A stretch of DNA of 64,000 nt from Desulfobaculum xiamenense (lineage in GTDB: Bacteria > Desulfobacterota > Desulfovibrionia > Desulfovibrionales > Desulfovibrionaceae): NCBI RefSeq assembly GCF_011927665.1, contig NZ_JAATJA010000001.1:1655019-1719018 (forward strand), read 5' to 3'. This document shows, one piece after another, positions 11,079 to 63,296 of this stretch (positions are counted from its first letter, which is position 1; each line of letters starts with the position of its first letter). The position numbers were made by a program, and so were the translations under genes. The notes under the pieces are model-generated. The model saw only the letters and a program-made list of their open reading frames with translations, was not told the DNA's origin and did not search any database.

Positions 11079-11891
11079 TCAGCGCTCACCGAGAATGCGC
11101 CCGAGTTGCAGCACCTTCTCGTTCATGGGGTAACGCTCCACAAGCGCACGGTATATGCCAATGGCCTCGTCACGCTTGTCCTGCCCCAGAAGCGCATAGG
11201 CAAGGTTCAGATTGCTCACGAAGTCGCCGGGACGAATGCCCACCGCGCGCCGGTAGTAGTTCTCGGCGTCGGCATAGCGCTTTTCCTTGAGGGCCAGATA
11301 GCCTTCCCACTTGTACTTGGTGGCGCTCTCCTTGCGGCCTATCTCCGTGGTCATCTTATCCAGCAGATCCTTGGACGTGCTCAGGTCGCCCGTCTCGGAG
11401 GACTGGATGAGCTTGCGCTGGAGCGAGAGCACCTCCTCATTGGAACGCGCGCGCTTGGCGAAATGGGTCTCCAGAGCCTTGGTGGGCTTGGTGAGGTCCA
11501 CGGCCTCCTTCGCGGTTTCCTCCTGCGGGGGGCGATAGAGCCGCTGCTTGATGATCGGCTCCTGAATGCCGGAATCCATCTGCCGCGTCGGCCGCGCCAG
11601 TTCGGCGCTGATGTCGCCCTCCAGAATCTTCTCCACCGCCGCGCCGCGCTCCTGAAGTTTCGCCGTCGGCGCGGTGGGCAGGTCCGGCGGCGGCGGAATC
11701 TCGATCTGCTGCACCTCCTGCTTGATGAAGAACAGGCCGGAGCCGACCAGCAGCACGAGCACGGCCGTGTAGGCCAGCGCCCGAAGCACGAGCTTGCTCA
11801 TGCGCGGAGCCACGGCTTGCGGCGTCTGACGCGTCTCCCGCGCCGCCTCTTCCTTCTTCAATTGCTGAAGACTGCGGTAGATGACGCTCAT
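11079..11891 (-). CDS. Inner-membrane-anchored TPR protein, MshN-like
   Basis: The product has 270 residues with a cytoplasmic N-terminus, one membrane helix (about 35-55, ALAYTAVLVLLVGSGLFFI) and a periplasmic part ending in TPR repeats (about 185-265, e.g. AENYYRRAVGIRPGDFVSNL). In MSHA pilus clusters MshN has this architecture and sits next to the secretin and the MshM ATPase, as here. It probably helps assemble or stabilise the secretin or the platform. Its ATG overlaps the secretin stop by four bases. Last gene of the cluster before the terminator. Confidence 0.75.
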   Translation of the reverse strand: MSVIYRSLQQLKKEEAARETRQTPQAVAPRMSKLVLRALAYTAVLVLLVGSGLFFIKQEVQQIEIPPPPDLPTAPTAKLQERGAAVEKILEGDISAELARPTRQMDSGIQEPIIKQRLYRPPQEETAKEAVDLTKPTKALETHFAKRARSNEEVLSLQRKLIQSSETGDLSTSKDLLDKMTTEIGRKESATKYKWEGYLALKEKRYADAENYYRRAVGIRPGDFVSNLNLAYALLGQDKRDEAIGIYRALVERYPMNEKVLQLGRILGER

Positions 11892-52677: not shown

Positions 52678-52852
52678 CTGTAAAAGCGCCCCCCCCGTAA
52701 CGCTCCCAGCAGCGTTCTTCGTCCCCACCGTATCCCCGCGCAGGGATTCCATTCGCGTCGGCATCTCCGCGAAAAGCCGCGCCCCACGAAACGGCGCTGC
52801 CCGCAGCCATTGACGGAACATGGCATTTGGCATAGCGATACGTTTTCAGCAT

Positions 52853-52867
52853 GAAAATGATTCTCAA
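52853..52867. promoter_or_regulatory. Fur-like box upstream of the sigma-54 activator gene
   Basis: TGAAAATGATTCTCA differs from the 7-1-7 Fur consensus TGATAATNATTATCA at two positions. It lies 45 bp before the start codon, which fits iron repression of the activator. Confidence 0.6.
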
Positions 52868-52911: not shown

Positions 52912-55032
52912 ATGCAGAACTACGCCCCCCACTTGCCAATCGCCGACGCAGACGCCTTGCCGCTTCCCGGGCTGTGCATCATCCGCCTGGATAGCGACGG
53001 CAGAATCGTTCTCCTCCTTGGAGAGAACACCCTGCCTCGCAGCCTTTGGGGCCGCATCGCCCCGGGCGTGATCTTCGAGTTGGCACTGGACGAGTGCATC
53101 GAACTCGAACGTCTTGTCGCGCTGGTCAGAACCCTTCCCTTTCACCACACGAAGCTACGCATCGACGGACAATGCTGGAGGGTGCAGAGCATCCGGCTGG
53201 GTGCCTCGCACATCCGCAATGACGGATTCCTCTTCTTCATCGAACCATGCGACATCTCGCGCATGATCGATGCGTCCCACGTCGAGGCACTCGCCCGCCC
53301 GCTGGCGCTCACTGGCGAGGAGGGCTTTCTTCACGGCGACAGCGGGGAGCTCATCGCCGCCTTCCATCCGGAGGAGCGCCTTGACACGGCACCAGGCACT
53401 GGACGTACGGCCCATCGCCTCCCCCTGCACTGCTCCATACGCATTCCCCCAACGGGCGAGGCTCGGGCCGAACTCGAAGCGCGCGGCTGGTGCAGCGCCA
53501 CACTGCCCTGCTCTCCGGATCGAAAAACCGCAGGCCTACTGGTCCGCAGCTACGCCATCACATACGGGCCCCACCCGCTTATCGTGAGCCTCGTGCGCGG
53601 CATCGAACTGGCAGAACAGCCGCAGTCCACAATACGGGAACGTCCGTTCCCCGCGATGGCCTACCGCAGGACACCTGCCCCGGATTTCCGGCTCCTTCAC
53701 GCCGACGAGGGAAGCCGCCGGATTCTGCGCATGCACTCGTGCATGCTGTTCTCGCCCTCGCCCATAGCTTTCAACGAATTGATCCACCCCTCGGACGAAG
53801 CCCGCTTCCGCAGCGCAGCGGCCGAGGCTGAAACGGGCAACAGCCACTTTCGGCTAAGCTACATCGTCCGGGCGGACGAGGGACGGGACGTGCGGGTGCT
53901 CGACAAGGGCACCCCCGTCCGCGACGAGCACGGCCGCCTGCTGTACGTCGAGGGCACCCTCTACGACATCGGCGCGCTGGATGCCCTGCACAACGAGGCC
54001 GCCGAATGCCGAGGCGAAGCCCCAAGTCTCGACGATTTCAAGCAACTCGGCATCATCGGCCGCTCACAGGGGCTAAAACGCATGCTCACCGTCATCGGTC
54101 GGGCCGCGACATCGCGGGAATGCGTGCTCATTCTCGGGGAATCCGGCTCGGGAAAAGAGCTCGCGGCCCGCGCCGTACACGAGGCGAGCAAGCGCGCCAG
54201 CGGTCCCTTCGTTTCCGTCAACTGCGGCGCAATTCCCGAATGCCTGATGGAAAGCGAATTCTTCGGCCACCGCAAGGGAGCCTTCTCCGGTGCGGATCGC
54301 AACCATGCAGGACTTTTCGAGCAAGCCCACGGCGGCACGCTGTTTCTCGATGAAATCGGGGAAATCCCGCTGAACATGCAGATCAAACTGCTGCGCGCCA
54401 TCGAGGGGAGCGGGATCACCCCTGTTGGCGGAACGGGCACCTTCACGCCCGACGTCCGCATCGTCGCAGCGACCAACCGCGACCTTGCGGAACGGGTCCG
54501 CCTAGGGGCCATGCGCGAAGACTTCTACTACCGCATCAACATCCTCCCCATCCGCATCCCGCCCCTGCGGGAACGCCGCGAGGACATCCCCTTGCTCTTC
54601 GGCCACTTTCTGGGCAACTGCCCAAATGTCGCACCCCTCCCCGGCGGCCTGCTCGCCCGGCTCATGCACTACGACTGGCCCGGAAACGTTCGCGAACTGC
54701 GCAATGCGGCCATGCGCTACGCCACCCTCGGCGAACTGCCCGCTGAAATACTTGGGCCGGAAATACTTGGGACGAAAATGCTTGGTGCGGAAATATTCGA
54801 CACGGAAATACCAGGTGCGGCAGCACTCGGCACGGACGCCACGGCCTTCGAAGCCGCTCAGCCCACTGCGGAAGGCGACCTGCGCTCCCGGCTTTCCGAA
54901 CTCGAACGCGAGATTCTGCTCAGGGAATTGGAGTCGAACCAATGGAACCGAAGCCGGGTCGCCACCCGCCTCGGCATCGACAGGCGCACCCTGTACGACA
55001 AAATCCGCCGCTACGATCTGCGGCCATCCTAA
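52912..55032 (+). CDS. Sigma-54-dependent transcriptional activator with PAS-like sensor region
   Basis: The 706-residue protein has an N-terminal sensor region (about 1-365) that includes a PAS-like part near [20 protein letters not shown]. The AAA+ domain (about 378-600) carries Walker [16 protein letters not shown] (the sigma-54 contact loop, Ser in place of the usual Thr) and Walker [12 protein letters not shown]. Six 5-residue units ([30 protein letters not shown]; residues 611-640) then separate it from a Fis-type helix-turn-helix ([20 protein letters not shown]). No clear ribosome-binding site precedes the ATG. A Fur-like box lies upstream, and an ideal sigma-54 promoter lies just downstream, before the uptake genes it probably controls. 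Confidence 0.93.
54742..54831 (+). repeat. Six tandem 15-bp units inside the activator gene
   Basis: Units of the type GCGGAAATACTTGGG repeat in frame and are more AT-rich than the surrounding gene. They encode the linker before the DNA-binding domain. Unit number could change by slippage without breaking the frame. Confidence 0.8.
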
Positions 55033-55034
55033 AA

Positions 55035-55075
55035 GTGGGAGGATTTCCTCCCACCGGCAGGGGAAATCTTCCCAC
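55035..55075. promoter_or_regulatory. Tandem palindromes, candidate activator binding sites
   Basis: Site 1, GTGGGAGGATTTCCTCCCAC (55035-55054), is a perfect 20-bp palindrome. Site 2 (55056-55075), read on the minus strand, is GTGGGAAGATTTCCCCTGCC and matches site 1 at 15 of 20 bases. Their centres are 21 bp apart, two DNA turns, and lie about 180-200 bp before the predicted start of the sigma-54 promoter. This is a typical enhancer position. Site 1 begins two bases after the activator stop, so it could instead end that transcript, but no U-tract follows. Confidence 0.6.
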
Positions 55076-55216
55076 CCGCCCGGCATCCCGCGCACACTGC
55101 GCCACGCCGGGCATTTCGCAGGATCAAGCGAGAATTTTCCCTCCCATCTCCTGCGGCCAAAGCCACCGTCGGCACCGCAAAATGCCCGCAGAAAGTCACT
55201 TTTTCATACTCCATCG

Positions 55217-55232
55217 TGGCACGCCATTTGCT
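55217..55232 (+). promoter_or_regulatory. Sigma-54 promoter of the uptake operon
   Basis: TGGCACG-CCAT-TTGCT is an exact match to the consensus TGGCACG-N4-TTGCW, with GG and GC ten bases apart. Predicted start about 55243, some 40 bp before the BtuF-like gene. Confidence 0.85.
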
Positions 55233-55238
55233 GAAGAT

Positions 55239-55257
55239 GAAATTCAAATTCATTTTC
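55239..55257. promoter_or_regulatory. Fur-like box over the predicted transcription start
   Basis: GAAATTCAAATTCATTTTC matches the 19-bp Fur pattern of hexamers (GATAAT, GATAAT, C, ATTATC) at about 13 positions. It overlaps the start site predicted from the sigma-54 promoter, an ideal place for repression. Confidence 0.55.
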
Positions 55258-55281
55258 ACGTGACTGCCATCAGGAGGAACA

Positions 55282-56136
55282 ATGCTTTCAGGACCGACAC
55301 TTCTCAATTCCATATTCGTCGGCGACCGCGTCGCGGATGTCGCCCGCGCGCTCGGCTGCTACCCCAAGGCCATGATCGGCGGACAGGTTCCCATGGTCGA
55401 ACGTGCCTACCCCTTCGCCGAACAGCTAGAGTGCATCCTCTGCGTCATGGGCCCCAAGCGCAAGCTGCTCTACAAGGCGTACGAGAAGATGGGCATCGAA
55501 TACGTCGTGCTGGAGAATTCCGGCGATGAGCCGAACCCGGCATCCATCGCTCCCGAACTTGAGGCCAAGGGACTGCGCGCAAGGACCATCGACTTCACGC
55601 ACGGCATCCCCCACGCCATTGAGGAAGCGGGCCGCGTCTTCGGACGCGAAAAGGCCGCCGCAAAGCTCCTGCGCACGTACGAGAAGGACATCGCCACCAT
55701 CGACGCTCCCCAGCCCGCCCTCGGCAAGCGCGTTCTCGTACTGCTCGGCATCGCCAATCCCGAGTTCTCCCGGCGCTTCCTACTCATCGAGGCCCCGGGC
55801 TGCCACCTCGACGACGTCGTCCTGCGGCCGCTTGGCTGCGAAAACGTGGGGCAGCCGCTCATCGATCCCGATCGGGAAATCGTCATGGAAGGCGTGCAGA
55901 CCATCGAGGGCCCGCTCCTCCTCGAAAAAATCGCCCCCGACGTCATCGCCCTCACCGGCGACGCGCTCACCGGCCAACTGGCCATCCGCGAAGCGCTCGC
56001 CCGCTGCCCCTCGCTGGCACACAGCGTGCCCGCCCTAAAGAATCAGGCCGTCTACGCCCTGCCCCACTGTTGCAGTGCGGAGCCTCTCAGCCATCCGGCG
56101 AACTTCGGCATCTGGAAAGAGGCTCTTTCCCGCTAG
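55282..56136 (+). CDS. BtuF/TroA-like binding protein without a signal peptide
   Basis: The product has 284 residues, starting at an ATG behind CAGGAGGAAC. The fold looks like a class III metal/siderophore/cobamide binding protein: an N-terminal lobe with LGCYPKAMIGG, a long connecting helix (HGIPHAIEEAGRVFGREKAA), and a C-terminal lobe (PDVIALTGDALTGQ). There is no signal peptide or lipobox; the sequence opens MLSGPTLLNSIFVGDRVAD, so it appears cytoplasmic. Cys, His and Met residues near the end (LPHCCSAEPLSHP) could bind metal. It is the first gene after the sigma-54/Fur promoter and 44 bp before the receptor gene. Perhaps a cytoplasmic carrier or sensor of the imported compound. Confidence 0.75.
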   Translation: MLSGPTLLNSIFVGDRVADVARALGCYPKAMIGGQVPMVERAYPFAEQLECILCVMGPKRKLLYKAYEKMGIEYVVLENSGDEPNPASIAPELEAKGLRARTIDFTHGIPHAIEEAGRVFGREKAAAKLLRTYEKDIATIDAPQPALGKRVLVLLGIANPEFSRRFLLIEAPGCHLDDVVLRPLGCENVGQPLIDPDREIVMEGVQTIEGPLLLEKIAPDVIALTGDALTGQLAIREALARCPSLAHSVPALKNQAVYALPHCCSAEPLSHPANFGIWKEALSR

Positions 56137-56180: not shown

Positions 56181-58253
56181 ATGGGCAATCGCATGGTCGC
56201 CATGTTGGCGGCATTTCTCATAACCGGCCTCATACTGGGCCAACCGGTCATGGCGGACGAGGGGGCTTCGCCAGCGGCCAAACCCGCAACGCAAGCCAAA
56301 GAAGCAAAAGGAGACCAGCTCCCCGAAACGACACTCGACCGGGTCGTGGTCAGCGCCACGCGCACGGAGCAGACGGCCTTCGAGGCCCCGGCCTCGGTCA
56401 TCGGCATAGGCAAGGAAGCCATCGAACGCACGCAGGCCCGGACGGTCAAGGATATCCTTGAGGACGTTCCCAACGTCGAATTCTCCGACCCCACGAATCC
56501 GTTCATCCAGAAGCCGTCCCTGCGCGGCCTCAACACAAACCAGACGACCTTCAAGATCGACGGCGCGCGGCAGAACTACTCGTCGCAGTCGGGCATTGGG
56601 CATTCGCCCCTCGTCGCGGACCCGGAGATGCTCAAAGAAGTCGAGGTGCTGCGTGGCCCCTCCTCCGCTCTGCACGGCAGCGGCGGCATTGGCGGCGTGA
56701 TCTCGCTGCGCACCAAGGACGCGGCGGACTTCCTCGAACCCGATGAGACGTTCGGGGCGCGCCTGAAGACCGGCTACCAGTCCGGCACCTCCCAGACCCT
56801 CAGTTCCGCCGCGCTCTACGGGCGTCAGGGCATTTTCGACATTCTCGGACAAGGTGCCTACCGCGACTTCGGAGACACCCACACGACGAACCCCTCGCCC
56901 ACGAAGGACACGAGCTACCGCACCGGATACTCGAAATCCGGCATGCTGAAGCTCTCGGCCTGCCCCACCGAAGATCAGGCACTCTCCCTCAGCTACAACT
57001 ACTACGACGGATTCTTCGGCTCGACACGCGCGGTGAGCACCTTCACCGAGGAGCAGCACCGCCTCGTAGGCAACTACGAGTATGCGCCAAGCGACAACCG
57101 CTGGATGGACCTGAAGCTCACCGCGCAGGGCGAATGGCGCGAAAACGAATACCTGAACGACGTGCCCCGGCAACTGAAGGACACGTTCGATTCGCTGGGC
57201 GGCAGCGTGCAGAACACCTCGCGCTTCGCCTTCGGCCCGGTCGCCGAAAATGCCCTCACTTACGGCGTGGACTTCTACCGCGATCATCAGGAAGGCACGG
57301 ACATGGGCGAACCGGACCCCTCGCGCCCCGACGCCTCCGCCGAGGATCTCGGCCTGTTCATCCAGGACGAGATAACCATCCTCGATCGCGTGAAGCTCAT
57401 CCCGGCGCTGCGCTTCACCTCCTACAGCCGCACCTCGGATTCGGACACAGCCACCGATCAGGACGACAGCAAGGTGACGCCGAAGTTCACCGCGCAGGTC
57501 GAGGTGTGCCCGTGGCTGAGCGTCTTCGGCACCTACGCCCAGTCCTACCGCCCGCCGTCGCTCGACGAAATCTACTTCGCCATCGACCACGACATGCCGT
57601 GGGGCAAGATAAGGGTCCTGCCCAACCCGAACCTCAAGCCGGAAACGGCCGAGACGTGGGAAATGGGCTTCAACGTCGGTCTCGACCGGCTCTTTACGGA
57701 CAACGATCCCTTCCGGCTCAAGGCGACCTATTTCCGCGAGGACGTGGACGACCTCATCGAGGCGCAGCAGACCAAAGGCTTCGCCACCCCGCCCGCGGGC
57801 GAGATCCACTACCAGAGCATCAACGTGGGAAGCGTGCACCGCTTCGGCTACGAGCTGGAAGGGGAATACATCATCGACAATCTGAGCCTCTCCGCCTCCT
57901 ACGGCAAAACCCTCGGCTGGGACGAGGAAACCGGCAACCGCACCGGCGGCAGCCCCGAAAAGCTCTCCCTGCGGGCGGGCTACGCCTTCCCGAGCCGCAA
58001 CCTCACCGTATACTGGAAGTCGCGCTTCGTTGGCGCGTACCGCACCTTCAACATGTTCGATGACGCGACCGTCACCTACAATCCCTACACCGTCCACGGC
58101 ATAGGGCTGACGTGGACCCCCAGCTTCCGCAACTTCGACGGCTTCCGTCTCGATCTTGGCGTGGATAACCTCTTCGACACCCGCTACCAGACCTCCAACG
58201 GCGGATACGACATCGGCCAGAACATCAAGATGTCCGTCTCCTACGAGTTCTAG
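56181..58253 (+). CDS. TonB-dependent outer-membrane receptor
   Basis: The 690-residue protein begins with a signal peptide (about 1-25). A TonB-box-like segment (LDRVVVSATR) is followed by the plug domain (about 55-165, with SLRGLNTNQTTFKIDGARQN and EVLRGPSSALHGSGGIGGVI). The 22-strand barrel ends in SVSYEF with the terminal Phe. The extended DGARQN/RGPSSALHGS pattern resembles haem and haemoglobin-type receptors. AAGGAG precedes the ATG. Located between a binding-protein-like gene and yejABE under a Fur-type promoter, it likely imports an iron complex or a peptide siderophore. Confidence 0.92.
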   Translation: MGNRMVAMLAAFLITGLILGQPVMADEGASPAAKPATQAKEAKGDQLPETTLDRVVVSATRTEQTAFEAPASVIGIGKEAIERTQARTVKDILEDVPNVEFSDPTNPFIQKPSLRGLNTNQTTFKIDGARQNYSSQSGIGHSPLVADPEMLKEVEVLRGPSSALHGSGGIGGVISLRTKDAADFLEPDETFGARLKTGYQSGTSQTLSSAALYGRQGIFDILGQGAYRDFGDTHTTNPSPTKDTSYRTGYSKSGMLKLSACPTEDQALSLSYNYYDGFFGSTRAVSTFTEEQHRLVGNYEYAPSDNRWMDLKLTAQGEWRENEYLNDVPRQLKDTFDSLGGSVQNTSRFAFGPVAENALTYGVDFYRDHQEGTDMGEPDPSRPDASAEDLGLFIQDEITILDRVKLIPALRFTSYSRTSDSDTATDQDDSKVTPKFTAQVEVCPWLSVFGTYAQSYRPPSLDEIYFAIDHDMPWGKIRVLPNPNLKPETAETWEMGFNVGLDRLFTDNDPFRLKATYFREDVDDLIEAQQTKGFATPPAGEIHYQSINVGSVHRFGYELEGEYIIDNLSLSASYGKTLGWDEETGNRTGGSPEKLSLRAGYAFPSRNLTVYWKSRFVGAYRTFNMFDDATVTYNPYTVHGIGLTWTPSFRNFDGFRLDLGVDNLFDTRYQTSNGGYDIGQNIKMSVSYEF

Positions 58254-58303: not shown

Positions 58304-60127
58304 ATGACACGACTGTCCCTCTTGCTGCTCGCCCTCGTGGCGGGCATCACCTGTTTCCCCAGCCCGCTTCTTGCCGAGCGGGTCATCGTCACCCACGCGC
58401 TGACGCTCTCCGGACCGCCGGAACTACCCGCAGATTTTCCCCATTTCCCCTACGCCAACCCCAACGCCCCAAAGGGCGGCACGCTGCGCCAGTGCGCCAT
58501 CGGAACCTTCGACAACATGAATCCCTTCACACCGAAGGGCCAGCTTCCTTCCGGATACGGCCTGCTGCACGACAGCCTCACCACCACATCCGATGACGAG
58601 CCCTTCACGCAATACTGTCTGGTGGCGCAAAAAATCGTCATGGCGGAAGACCGTTCGTGGGTCGAATTCCACATCGACCCTCGCGCCCGCTTCCAGGACG
58701 GCACGCCCATCACCGCCGAGGATGTCGTCTTTTCCTACGAGGCCACCATGCGAAACATCGGCAGCGTGATGCAGCGCTTCTTCGCGGACATCACGTCCGT
58801 GAAGGCCGTGGACACACTGCGCGTGCGCTACGAATTCACCCCCGGCACCAGTCGGGAGATTCCCCTGCAAGTCAGCAGGCTCCCCATCTACCCCCGCCAC
58901 TTCTGGGAGAGCCGCGATCTCTCGCGTACCATGCTCGAACCCATCGTCGGCAGCGGCCCCTACCGCATGGTCTCGTGCAAACCCGGCCAGGAGGCCGTCT
59001 ACGAACGCTGCGCGGACTACTGGGCACGCGATCTGCCGGTGCGCAAGGGATTCCACAACTTCGACACCATCCGCTACGAGTACTACCGCGACGCCACCGT
59101 CGCCCTCGAAGCCTTTCGCGCCGAACACTACGACATCCGCGAGGAGCATTCCGCCAAGCGCTGGCGAACCCTCTACACCGGCCCCGCCTTCGACGCGGGA
59201 GACATCGTCATGGAGCGCGTCCGGCATCGGGAACCTCTCGGCATTCAGGGCTTCTTCTTCAACACGCGCCGCCCCATGTTTCAGGACAGACGCGTCCGCA
59301 GGGCAATCGTCCTCGCCTTCGACTACGAATGGACCAACCGCCAACTTTTCTGGAACGAGCTTCCGCGCACCACGAGCTACTTCACCAACTCGGACCTTGC
59401 CTGCTCCGGCCTGCCCTCCCCCGAGGAACTCGCCCTGCTCGAACCATTCCGAGACAGCCTGCCGCCGGAGACGTTCACCGCCGAGCACGCCTTTCCGACC
59501 TCCGACAACAGCGGATTCAACCGGAGCAACATCCTTGCCGCCGCAGACCTGCTGCGTGAGGCTGGCTTCGTTCTCAAGGACGGCACACTCACGGATTCGC
59601 GCACGGGCAGAGCGCTGCGCTTCCAGCTGCTCACGGATTCCGCGTCCATGCGCCGCGTCGCGCTGCCCTTTGCCCGCAATCTGCGCAAACTCGGCATCGA
59701 CATGAGCATCCTCGTGGCGGACACGGCGCTCTTTGCCCGCAAGGGGCAAGACTTCGACTTCGACATGATCTCCAGCGCATTCGGGCACACCCTGTGCCCC
59801 GGCAGGGAATTGCGCTTCTACTGGCACTCGGACTCGAAGAACCTCCACGGCGGACGCAACGTCATCGGCCTCGACGATCCCGCCGTGGACGCCCTCGTGG
59901 ATGCCATCGTCACCGCTCCAGACAGAAAGGCCACCGTAACCGCCTGCCGCGCGCTGGACCGCGTGCTGCTGTGGGGGGAATACGTGGTTCCGCTCGGCGC
60001 GTCCGACGTCTACCGCATCGCCTACCGCAGGAGCCTTGCGAAACCGCAGCGCACACCGAGGCACACCGTCCAGATCAATACCTGGTGGGCCGCGCCCGCC
60101 GACGCATCCACCGGAGACGCACGATGA
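58304..60127 (+). CDS. yejA: YejA-like periplasmic substrate-binding protein
   Basis: The 607-residue protein (signal peptide about 1-24) belongs to the family 5 extracellular solute-binding proteins. Typical features are FPHFPYANPNAPKGGTLRQC, YGLLHDSLTT and RFQDGTPITAEDVVFSYEA, with VRRAIVLAFDYEWTNRQLFW in the second lobe. In E. coli YejABEF imports peptides, including microcin C. It overlaps yejB by four bases and follows the TonB-receptor gene with a short gap. Confidence 0.9.
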   Translation: MTRLSLLLLALVAGITCFPSPLLAERVIVTHALTLSGPPELPADFPHFPYANPNAPKGGTLRQCAIGTFDNMNPFTPKGQLPSGYGLLHDSLTTTSDDEPFTQYCLVAQKIVMAEDRSWVEFHIDPRARFQDGTPITAEDVVFSYEATMRNIGSVMQRFFADITSVKAVDTLRVRYEFTPGTSREIPLQVSRLPIYPRHFWESRDLSRTMLEPIVGSGPYRMVSCKPGQEAVYERCADYWARDLPVRKGFHNFDTIRYEYYRDATVALEAFRAEHYDIREEHSAKRWRTLYTGPAFDAGDIVMERVRHREPLGIQGFFFNTRRPMFQDRRVRRAIVLAFDYEWTNRQLFWNELPRTTSYFTNSDLACSGLPSPEELALLEPFRDSLPPETFTAEHAFPTSDNSGFNRSNILAAADLLREAGFVLKDGTLTDSRTGRALRFQLLTDSASMRRVALPFARNLRKLGIDMSILVADTALFARKGQDFDFDMISSAFGHTLCPGRELRFYWHSDSKNLHGGRNVIGLDDPAVDALVDAIVTAPDRKATVTACRALDRVLLWGEYVVPLGASDVYRIAYRRSLAKPQRTPRHTVQINTWWAAPADASTGDAR

Positions 60128-61221
60128 TCCACTACATCCTCAAACGGCTCTTGCTCGTGATACCAACGCTGCTGGTCATCCTGACGATCAACTTCTTCGT
60201 CATCCAGCTCTGCCCCGGTGGCCCGGTGGAGCAGATGCTCGCGCGGATACAGGGCACCGAACGCTCCGTGCTGGAGCGCACCGGCGGCTCCACGCAGGAC
60301 GAAATCCGGGTGGTGCAAAGCTCGCTGGACAACATGGGCTCCTATCGCGGTGCAGACGGGCTGGACCCGGAACTCGTGGACCGCATCCGGAAATTCTACG
60401 GCTTCGACAGGCCCATCCTCGAACGCTACTGGAACATGCTGGCAGACTTCGCCCGCTTCCGCTTCGGCGACAGCCTGTTCAGGGACAAGTCCATTCTTGA
60501 GTTGGTCCGCGAGAAGCTCCCGGTGTCGCTGTCCCTCGGCCTGTGGACCACGCTCATCTCGTACGTGATTTCCATTCCGCTCGGCATACGCAAGTCCATA
60601 CGCGCCGGAACGCCCTTCGATGCGTGGACCAGCTTCGCCGTGGTTGCGGCAAGTGCCGTTCCGACCTTCCTCTTCGCCATCGCGCTGGTCATCCTCTTTG
60701 CCGGCGGCAGCTACTGGAACGTCTTTCCGCTACGCGGCCTCGTCTCCCCAGACTTCGAATCCCTGGACACGATGGGGAAAATCGCCGACTACGCATGGCA
60801 CATGGCTCTTCCCGTCCTGTCCATGGTCATCGGCAGCTTCGCCGGAACCACCCTGCTCACGCGCAACTGCTTCCTCGACGAAATCGGCAGGCAGTACGTC
60901 GTGGCCGCGAGGGCCAGAGGGCTCACCGAATCCCGCGTGCTTTACGGACACGTCTTCCGTAATGCCATGCTCATCTTCATCGCAGGCTTCCCCGGGGCCT
61001 TCATCGGCATGTTCTTCACCGGGTCGCTGCTCATCGAAGTCATCTTCTCGCTGGACGGGCTGGGCCAGATGGGCTTCGAGGCGACCATGCAGCGGGACTA
61101 TCCGCTGATGTTCGCCACCCTCTACATCTCCACGCTGCTCGGGCTGGTCGTAAAAGTTGTGAGCGACCTGACGTATTCCCTTGTGGACCCGCGCATCGAC
61201 TTCCAATCCGTCAACCAGTGA
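60124..61221 (+). CDS. yejB: YejB-like ABC transporter permease
   Basis: The 365-residue product has six membrane helices and the binding-protein-dependent transport loop near EIGRQYVVAARARGLTESRV. The N-terminal segment has the YejB-type opening (MIHYILKRLLLVIPTL, LCPGGPVEQML). Start by ATGA overlap with yejA. Confidence 0.92.
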   Translation: MIHYILKRLLLVIPTLLVILTINFFVIQLCPGGPVEQMLARIQGTERSVLERTGGSTQDEIRVVQSSLDNMGSYRGADGLDPELVDRIRKFYGFDRPILERYWNMLADFARFRFGDSLFRDKSILELVREKLPVSLSLGLWTTLISYVISIPLGIRKSIRAGTPFDAWTSFAVVAASAVPTFLFAIALVILFAGGSYWNVFPLRGLVSPDFESLDTMGKIADYAWHMALPVLSMVIGSFAGTTLLTRNCFLDEIGRQYVVAARARGLTESRVLYGHVFRNAMLIFIAGFPGAFIGMFFTGSLLIEVIFSLDGLGQMGFEATMQRDYPLMFATLYISTLLGLVVKVVSDLTYSLVDPRIDFQSVNQ

Positions 61222-62267
61222 GACCACACATGCAGCGCCCCCGCCTCGGCGAAATCGGCAGAATCCGCTGGGCCACCTTCCGCGACAACGCACGCGGCTA
61301 CTGGGCCCTCATCATCTTTCTCGCACTCTTCGGCCTCAGCCTGTGCGCGGAGCTCATCGCCAACGACAGGCCGCTTCTGCTCATGCACCGTGGCAGCCTC
61401 TACGCGCCCATCCTGTGCGACTATCCTGAAACGACGTTCGGCGGGGCCTTCGAGACACCTGCGGACTACCGCGATCCCGCCGTCCGCGAACGCATCGAAA
61501 CCGAGGGCTGGATGCTGTGGCCCCCCATCCGCTACGGCTACGCCACGGTCAATCGGGAAATCGCCACCCCATTCCCCACGCCGCCCACCCGCGACAACAT
61601 CCTCGGCACGGACGACAGCGGACGAGACGTCTTCGCGCGTCTGCTTTACGGCTTCAGGCTCTCCGTGCTCTTCGGCCTTGCACTGGCGGCTTTCGGGTCC
61701 ATCATCGGCGTCTGCGTCGGCGCGACATTCGGCTACTATGGCGGCTGGCTCGACATCGCGGGCCAACGCTTCATGGAGGTCTGGGGCGGCCTGCCGCTGA
61801 CCTATCTGCTCATCATCCTCGCCAGCTTCGTGGAGCCGACATTCTGGATGCTCCTCGGCATCATGCTGCTGTTTAGCTGGATGGGACTGGTTGACATCGT
61901 GCGGGCGGAATTTCTGCGTGGGCGCAACCTCTGCTACGTTCAGGCCGCACGTGCCCTCGGCGTCACGGACAGGGTGATCATGTTCCGGCACATCCTGCCC
62001 AACGCCATGGTCGCCACCATCACCTTCCTGCCATTCATCCTCAACGGCTCAATCACCACGCTCACCTCACTGGACTTCCTCGGCTTCGGCCTGCCGCCGG
62101 ACTCCCCGGCCCTCGGCGAACTCCTCGCGCAGGGCAAGGCCAACATCCAGGCCCCATGGATCGGACTCTCAGCCTTCGCCGTCCTTGGCGGGCTGCTCAT
62201 GCTCCTCGTCTTCATCGGCGAAGCCGTGCGCGACGCCTTCGACCCCAACCGCGCGCAGGCCCGCTGA
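61218..62267 (+). CDS. yejE: YejE-like ABC transporter permease
   Basis: The 349-residue permease starts by GTGA overlap with yejB (an ATG at 61230 is an alternative). It has a long periplasmic loop (about 50-120), the DppC-type element GTDDSGRDVFARLLYG, and the EAA-like loop YVQAARALGVTDRVIMFRHI. The expected ATPase yejF is not next to it: a hairpin and a CRISPR array follow instead. Confidence 0.92.
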   Translation: MRPHMQRPRLGEIGRIRWATFRDNARGYWALIIFLALFGLSLCAELIANDRPLLLMHRGSLYAPILCDYPETTFGGAFETPADYRDPAVRERIETEGWMLWPPIRYGYATVNREIATPFPTPPTRDNILGTDDSGRDVFARLLYGFRLSVLFGLALAAFGSIIGVCVGATFGYYGGWLDIAGQRFMEVWGGLPLTYLLIILASFVEPTFWMLLGIMLLFSWMGLVDIVRAEFLRGRNLCYVQAARALGVTDRVIMFRHILPNAMVATITFLPFILNGSITTLTSLDFLGFGLPPDSPALGELLAQGKANIQAPWIGLSAFAVLGGLLMLLVFIGEAVRDAFDPNRAQAR

Positions 62268-62364: not shown

Positions 62365-63247
62365 TCATGCGGCCCCGCGCGTGCGGGGAACACGGCAACA
62401 TCGCCGCCGACACGTTTTCCGAATCCGGTTCATCCCCGCGCGTGCGGGGAACACAATGCAGAGCAGACGTTGCATTGCTGGTGTCTAGGTTCATCCCCGC
62501 GCGTGCGGGGAACACCACCTTTGGGAAATTCAGACTTTCATATTCAACGGTTCATCCCCGCGCGTGCGGGGAACACCCCTGCCGCCCAAAAGAAGCCACT
62601 TCACACCCCGGTTCATCCCCGCGCGTGCGGGGAACACTTACAGAATTCTCCGCCCGGTCCCGAAAACGTCGGTTCATCCCCGCGCGTGCGGGGAACACAG
62701 GTCTGATGCAGTGCCCAGTTGCGCGACCGTCGGTTCATCCCCGCGCGTGCGGGGAACACGTACGGCCGCATCCAACTGCGGATACAGCCCACGGTTCATC
62801 CCCGCGCGTGCGGGGAACACTACCACCGATGCACAGGAAAATTCGACGGGACCGGTTCATCCCCGCGCGTGCGGGGAACACACCCTGGGGCTGATTCTTG
62901 GTCAGGGGGTGTTCGGTTCATCCCCGCGCGTGCGGGGAACACTGGGGCAATGCCCTTCTCTCTGCCTCTATGGCCGGTTCATCCCCGCGCGTGCGGGGAA
63001 CACTCTTTCGCCTTCAAGATAAACTGACCGGGATCCGGTTCATCCCCGCGCGTGCGGGGAACACTCTGGGTCTGGCTCCGGAGTCGGCCCAAATCTCGGT
63101 TCATCCCCGCGCGTGCGGGGAACACGGACTTCCGGAATGTCGCGGGCGATGATCATCCGGTTCATCCCCGCGCGTGCGGGGAACACTTCCCACTGCTCAT
63201 ATAGCCGTTCAGGAATGTCGGTTCATCCCCGCGCGTGCGGGGAACAC
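62365..63247 (-). CRISPR. Type I-E CRISPR array, 15 repeats and 14 spacers
   Basis: The 29-bp repeats (plus-strand form begins CGGTTCATCCCCGCGC and ends GTGCGGGGAACAC) recur every 61 bp, with 32-bp spacers throughout. The repeats start at 62365, 62426, 62487 and so on to 63219. The first (62365-62393) is altered in its leading eight bases, marking the old, leader-distal end. The repeat at 62487 has A in place of the first C. In the transcribed sense each repeat begins GTGTTCCCCGCG, the usual I-E orientation, so transcription is from right to left. The CCCCGC/GCGGGG arms form the Cas6e hairpin. Confidence 0.98.
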
Positions 63248-63296
63248 TCTTCCTGCAACTTTCGGATTTCATTGAACAAAAATGCTCGACAAAAAT
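63248..63296 (-). promoter_or_regulatory. CRISPR leader
   Basis: This AT-rich stretch lies between the intact terminal repeat and the cas2e stop codon, containing TTTTTGTCGAGCATTTTTGT on the transcribed strand. It lies at the end where new spacers are added. It is short, so part of it may extend into the cas2 end. Confidence 0.7.

Follow-up and report, generated by a model that had tools for sequence, protein, structure and literature searches.

How is an operon for a TonB-dependent receptor and a Yej-type importer switched on and off in Desulfobaculum xiamenense, and which role do sigma-54 and Fur play in this process? The question arises from a stretch of 64,000 nucleotides of the genome (in the following, the window), in which the following genes are arranged in one operon:

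55282-56136, plus strand: first operon gene, encoding a 284-aa Peripla_BP_2-like protein with HutB and IsdE as distant relatives and no evident signal peptide
56184-58253, plus strand: TonB-dependent receptor of the heme/hemoglobin family (above the cut-off of NCBIfam TIGR01785, with ShuA-type relatives in the PDB)
58304-60127, plus strand: YejA-like family-5 solute-binding protein, by family assignment
60142-61221, plus strand: YejB-like permease, by family assignment
61218-62267, plus strand: YejE-like permease; the yejF ATPase gene, which comes next in the relatives, is absent here

The operon is probably turned on by a neighbouring sigma-54 activator and turned off by Fur, and we regard this dual control as probably real because the same arrangement was found in two related genomes. 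It would be exerted through these elements:

52851-52867, plus strand: Fur box of the activator promoter, 45-61 bp before the activator ATG (ATGAAAATGATTCTCAA; 1 mismatch to the dFUR consensus)
52912-55032, plus strand: one-component sigma-54 activator (bEBP) with PAS_3, AAA+ and Fis-type HTH domains
55035-55054, no strand assigned: site A (GTGGGAGGATTTCCTCCCAC), predicted to be bound by the activator; it follows the activator stop codon by 2 bp and precedes the -24 element by 182 bp
55056-55075, no strand assigned: degenerate second copy in which one half-site is good (CTTCCCAC); its start is offset by 21 bp from that of site A
55128-55147, no strand assigned: third copy, likewise degenerate (GCGAGAATTTTCCCTCCCAT), which precedes the -24 element by 89 bp
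55217-55232, plus strand: sigma-54 promoter with -24 TGGCACG and -12 TTGCT and a predicted start at about 55243
55231-55259, no strand assigned: Fur array of three dFUR 17-mers with a 6-bp shift (CTGAAGATGAAATTCAAATTCATTTTCAC)

Scanning both strands of the 64-kb window for sigma-54 promoters revealed TGGCACGCCATTTGCT at 55217-55232 as the sole exact -24/-12 match, which agrees fully with the consensus tGGcacg...tTGCt of Desulfovibrio (PMC4641369). Genome-wide, five exact matches were found in 3.64 Mb, compared with 0 for a reversed control pattern, and two of the other four are located upstream of a flagellar rod gene. None of 1000 shuffles of the intergenic region reached an exact site of the TGGCACGCCATTTGCT type. 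The exact promoter of the original prediction is thereby confirmed. The GG-N10-GC core is present in the window and preserved in the relatives, sigma-54 itself is encoded in the host genome, and a search for a sigma-70-like promoter in the intergenic regions of the window and of the related genome G087 returned none. Judging from the position of the motif, transcription would start near 55243.

Sigma-54 promoters have essentially zero basal activity and are silent without an activator, so that one would be required here. The immediate upstream neighbour had been proposed for this role, and its domain architecture agrees: Pfam assigns PAS_3, Sigma54_activat (PF00158, 214 bits) and a Fis-type HTH (HTH_8) to the protein, which was aligned with its orthologs in G087 and in a second relative, G337. 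It carries a GAFSGA instead of a GAFTGA loop, as does a second activator in the host genome, and this variant is listed among the tolerated ones that keep activity (PMC4641369). An AAA+ domain with a tolerated loop and an HTH are the features of a bEBP. The HTH recognition helices are nearly identical in the three activators (GIDRRTL), and the PAS domain is likely the signal input. The N-terminal part of about 240 aa (52912-53640) is without a Pfam match and is missing from both orthologs. A search with the N-terminal portion of the activator, which included the PAS domain, revealed nothing closely similar outside that domain.

Possible binding sites of the activator are palindromes of the form GTGGGR-N8-YCCCAM. 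Two related 20-bp palindromes spaced 21 bp apart had been predicted: the first (site A) is symmetric at 18 of 20 positions, with no second palindromic match anywhere in the genome, and the 21-bp offset is correct, but the second is a weak half-site (3 mismatches, 8 of 20 positions symmetric) at a position that is unconserved in the relatives. We therefore rejected the 21-bp pair as a conserved enhancer, as the sites of the relatives are about 90 bp apart, about 175 and 85 bp upstream of the promoter. The degenerate third copy at 55128-55147, absent from the original prediction, may correspond to the strong sites that G087 and G337 have at 83 and 85 bp, respectively. The pattern has only a handful of matches per genome, with the fully symmetric cases at this locus: the symmetric matches in the host genome (G000) and in G337 as well as two of the four matches in G087 all fall within this one intergenic region. 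Conserved palindromes between activator gene and target are what is expected for an enhancer-binding protein, and we infer that the activator binds at these sites.

The second layer of control concerns Fur. The delta-proteobacterial Fur box is WTGAAAATNATTTTCAW, and Desulfovibrio boxes typically overlap with a distinctive 6-bp shift (PMC545781). At the operon, overlapping 17-mers start at 55231, 55237 and 55243 with 4, 3 and 3 mismatches to this consensus, respectively, and the quality of the array was equalled in 8 of 1000 shuffles of the intergenic region. A Fur-like box had been placed over the start site at 55239-55257; it turned out to be the middle of this longer array, and the location over the start applies to the window only, not to the relatives, where the array lies at +24 to +53 (window: -11 to +15). 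A 27-bp form with 6-bp periodicity, TGARRATGA-N9-TCAWNTTCA, is common to the loci of the window, G087 and G337. It is exact at the operon array, with 0.02 matches expected in the window at ≤2 mismatches for a pattern drawn from these same three loci, and its sole other match in the window (2 mismatches) is the activator promoter. The box predicted for the activator gene itself (52853-52867) was recovered there as 52851-52867: ATGAAAATGATTCTCAA is one of three genome sites with ≤2 mismatches to TTGAAAATNATTTTCAA, and the other two precede feoAB. Overall, the Fur motif is enriched in the host genome (18 sites versus 1 in the control), with further sites before a second feoB operon and before a YejA-like gene that is oriented divergently to a gene for an M16 peptidase. 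The E. coli-type consensus GATAATGATAATCATTATC had zero matches at ≤3 mismatches, which is expected because delta-proteobacteria use a different Fur box (PMC545781). The 6-bp-shifted boxes of the WTGAAAATNATTTTCAW type and the same motif at feoAB correspond to delta-proteobacterial Fur, and the motifs predict Fur binding and iron-dependent repression at both boxes.

To find relatives of the locus, we used the 284-aa protein as a query over the order, the family and the phylum. Three close orthologs were obtained, all in the same operon: in G087 (L091), G337 (L129) and G194 (L092). The phylum-wide search gave distant relatives only, and a search of genome contigs returned only the G194 record. 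G087 and G337, which belong to the same family, encode the activator, the 284-aa protein, the TonB receptor, YejA, YejB, YejE and YejF. Their sigma-54 sites (TGGCATGTTTTTCGCT in G087, TGGCGTGATTCTGGCT in G337) preserve the GG of the -24 and the GC of the -12 element, and their palindromes (GTGGGGTGCTGGCCTCCCAA and GTGGGGTGGAAACACCCCAA in G087, GTGGGGCTGTTTAGCCCCAC in G337) are similarly placed: the first lies 171 and 175 bp from the -24 element, respectively (window: 182 bp), the second site 83 and 85 bp (window: 89 bp, degenerate). The distance from the end of the Fur array to the start codon is 23 bp in the window, 18 bp in G087 and 19 bp in G337. A Fur site is also found at the activator gene in all three: in G337 it lies at a distance similar to that in the window (about 45 bp; L129 11595-11611, ATG at 11554). 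In G087 the activator box is about 640 bp from the ATG (L091 5900-6570), and an insertion is a possible origin of this gap.

Taken alone, the sigma-54 sites and the Fur boxes of the relatives are weak: the former, with 2 and 3 mismatches, were equalled in 48 and 222 of 1000 shuffles, the latter in 84 and 89. The joint pattern of -24/-12 element and Fur array, searched in 348 genomes of the order with a gap range that does not include the window locus itself, retrieved this operon in G087 and G337; the control gave 0, and the only other matches came from three genomes of a different genus, which share a nearly identical sequence. Core, palindromes and Fur array are kept together with the gene pair, the conservation that the original prediction had asked for, and neither palindromes nor Fur box were lost in the two further loci that possess the activator. 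In G194 the operon is present but the activator is not, and palindromes and a good sigma-54 site are missing as well; a strong Fur box is found there beside a TTGACA-type promoter. The full arrangement is present in three genomes only.

We estimate a probability of roughly three in four that the region controls an operon for a TonB receptor and a Yej-type importer of iron, heme or a metal chelate, and that here a sigma-54 activator and Fur, acting at two levels, form a coherent feed-forward AND gate. Transcription would start at the sigma-54 promoter and would need the adjacent PAS-AAA+-HTH activator, bound at the upstream GTGGGR-N8-YCCCAM sites. Iron-loaded Fur would repress the activator promoter as well as the operon, the latter at the extended array over or just after the start site. 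At low iron, Fur would leave both, so that starvation would make the activator and at the same time free its target. The PAS domain could gate the output by a second signal, for example the imported substrate or the redox state. The conservation of the motifs with the gene pair supports the feed-forward logic that had been predicted, and it is from these motifs that we infer binding, start site and the direction of iron regulation.

Four other explanations compete with this dual control. The one with the best prospects, though still unlikely, keeps sigma-54 and the activator as drivers of the operon and confines Fur to the activator gene, making 55231-55259 a decayed or chance AT-rich stretch. 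The 3-4 mismatches per 17-mer, a quality that 8 of 1000 shuffles reach, and the variable position relative to the start would fit such an origin, but it would leave unexplained the 27-bp form shared by all three loci and exact in the window, even if this pattern was derived from these loci, and also the conserved distance of the array to the ATG. Still less likely, the operon might be under Fur control from a sigma-70 promoter with a vestigial -24/-12 element and an activator that regulates something else. This is the situation suggested by G194 with its TTGACA-type promoter, Fur box and missing activator; however, no sigma-70-like site was found in the intergenic region of the window, and all three genomes with the activator also have the GG/GC core and the palindromes, the latter being almost restricted to this region.

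That the palindromes are terminators of the activator gene rather than activator sites appears improbable. Their location directly after the stop codon and the G337 copy, whose 16-pair stem and T-rich tail resemble an intrinsic terminator, speak for it, yet site A of the window and both G087 copies are without a T tail, and the conserved part is the GTGGGR/YCCCAM sequence, nearly confined to this region, and not a loop or tail. Least probable of all is that another protein of the FUR family, of the PerR or Zur type, binds the boxes and makes the operon responsive to peroxide or zinc: two FUR-family proteins are indeed encoded in the genome, but the best genomic sites of the motif precede feoAB, others the second feoB operon and the YejA/M16-peptidase pair, and the motif is the one published for Fur of delta-proteobacteria (PMC545781).

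Each half of the proposed dual control by activator and Fur is known, namely Fur-controlled AraC-type activators and sigma-54-driven receptor operons, and what appears to be new is their combination with Fur at both levels, an uncommon one. The AraC-type activators of the FoxR/PchR circuits work with sigma-70. Like the FoxR-pqqL cluster of Desulfovibrio (PMC545781) and the circuits of the PchR/AlcR/YbtA type, the locus pairs a Fur-controlled activator with a Fur-controlled operon for metal-chelate import. It works like this kind but is no member of it, because its activator is not of the AraC family but a sigma-54 enhancer-binding protein (PAS-AAA+-Fis HTH). The VnfA1/VnfA3 Class B promoters of Azotobacter vinelandii are similar in that sigma-54 activators drive operons for a TonB-dependent siderophore receptor and iron ABC transport, but VnfA1/VnfA3 are GAF-domain nitrogenase regulators that answer to Mo/V, and we found no mention of a Fur site in that report (PMC9542535). 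XibR of Xanthomonas is likewise an NtrC-family regulator of iron-uptake genes; in contrast to the activator described here, it is a response regulator with a receiver domain, its induction occurs in iron-replete cells, its loss raises siderophore output, and it is not a local operon activator (PMC5130282). The one-component sigma-54 regulons of D. vulgaris Hildenborough share the local EBP, the adjacent target operon, the upstream EBP sites and the identical -24/-12 consensus, whereas no TonB, siderophore or Fur-linked regulon was found in the text of that study (PMC4641369).

Within the open-access literature, we found no iron-uptake operon for which a sigma-54/Fur promoter is described, and no such combination with Fur acting at both levels. 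The predicted rarity of the arrangement would apply to the combination but not to sigma-54-driven iron uptake itself; the notion that iron uptake is never driven by sigma-54 is rejected by VnfA in Azotobacter (PMC9542535). On balance, we lean towards the wider view that in a Desulfovibrio-type lineage a heme or metallophore importer is under a sigma-54 activator of its own, of the PAS type, and not under a sigma-70, ECF or AraC-type system. Its promoter, silent unless driven from the enhancer, would be subject to an additional Fur block at the start or past it, and the result would be an AND gate with iron starvation as one input and a substrate or redox signal as the other. With essentially no basal activity of the promoter and Fur in addition, such an iron-uptake operon would hardly leak and would need two signals. 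If confirmed, the pathway-specific activators under Fur control would come to include sigma-54 activators, in a group of anaerobes that is frequent in guts and sediments. The loci would also offer a natural test of how Fur blocks a promoter driven from an enhancer: in one genome the block would be at the start, in two others about 25-50 bp downstream.

Heme or a metal chelate is the putative substrate, as suggested by the family of the receptor together with the Peripla_BP_2-like and YejA-type binding proteins. Heme is only a candidate, because the histidine between two conserved receptor boxes is present in the window but missing in G087 and G337. The reading frame of the receptor is open from 56070, and its start codon is uncertain, likely at about 56181. 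For the 284-aa protein, the orthologs in G087 and G194 gave a Peripla_BP_2 Pfam match slightly under the curated cut-off, the nearest solved relatives are HutB and IsdE with weak scores, and the AlphaFold model is of low confidence (pLDDT 60). No evident signal peptide was observed in the proteins of the window, G087 and G194, while the distant relatives (L093-L110) have one; this solute-binding-type protein may have been relocated to the cytoplasm.

A second YejA-like gene with a Fur box is located elsewhere in the genome (L170 1-3926; G000:C1:336800-340800), divergent from a pqqL-like M16 peptidase gene and without an exact sigma-54 site, and this pair resembles the published Fur-controlled pqqL cluster (PMC545781). 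The importer operon of the window is without an ATPase gene of its own, and a CRISPR array (62367-63250, repeat CGGTTCATCCCCGCGCGTGCGGGGAACAC) begins about 100 bp past yejE, at the position that yejF occupies in the relatives.
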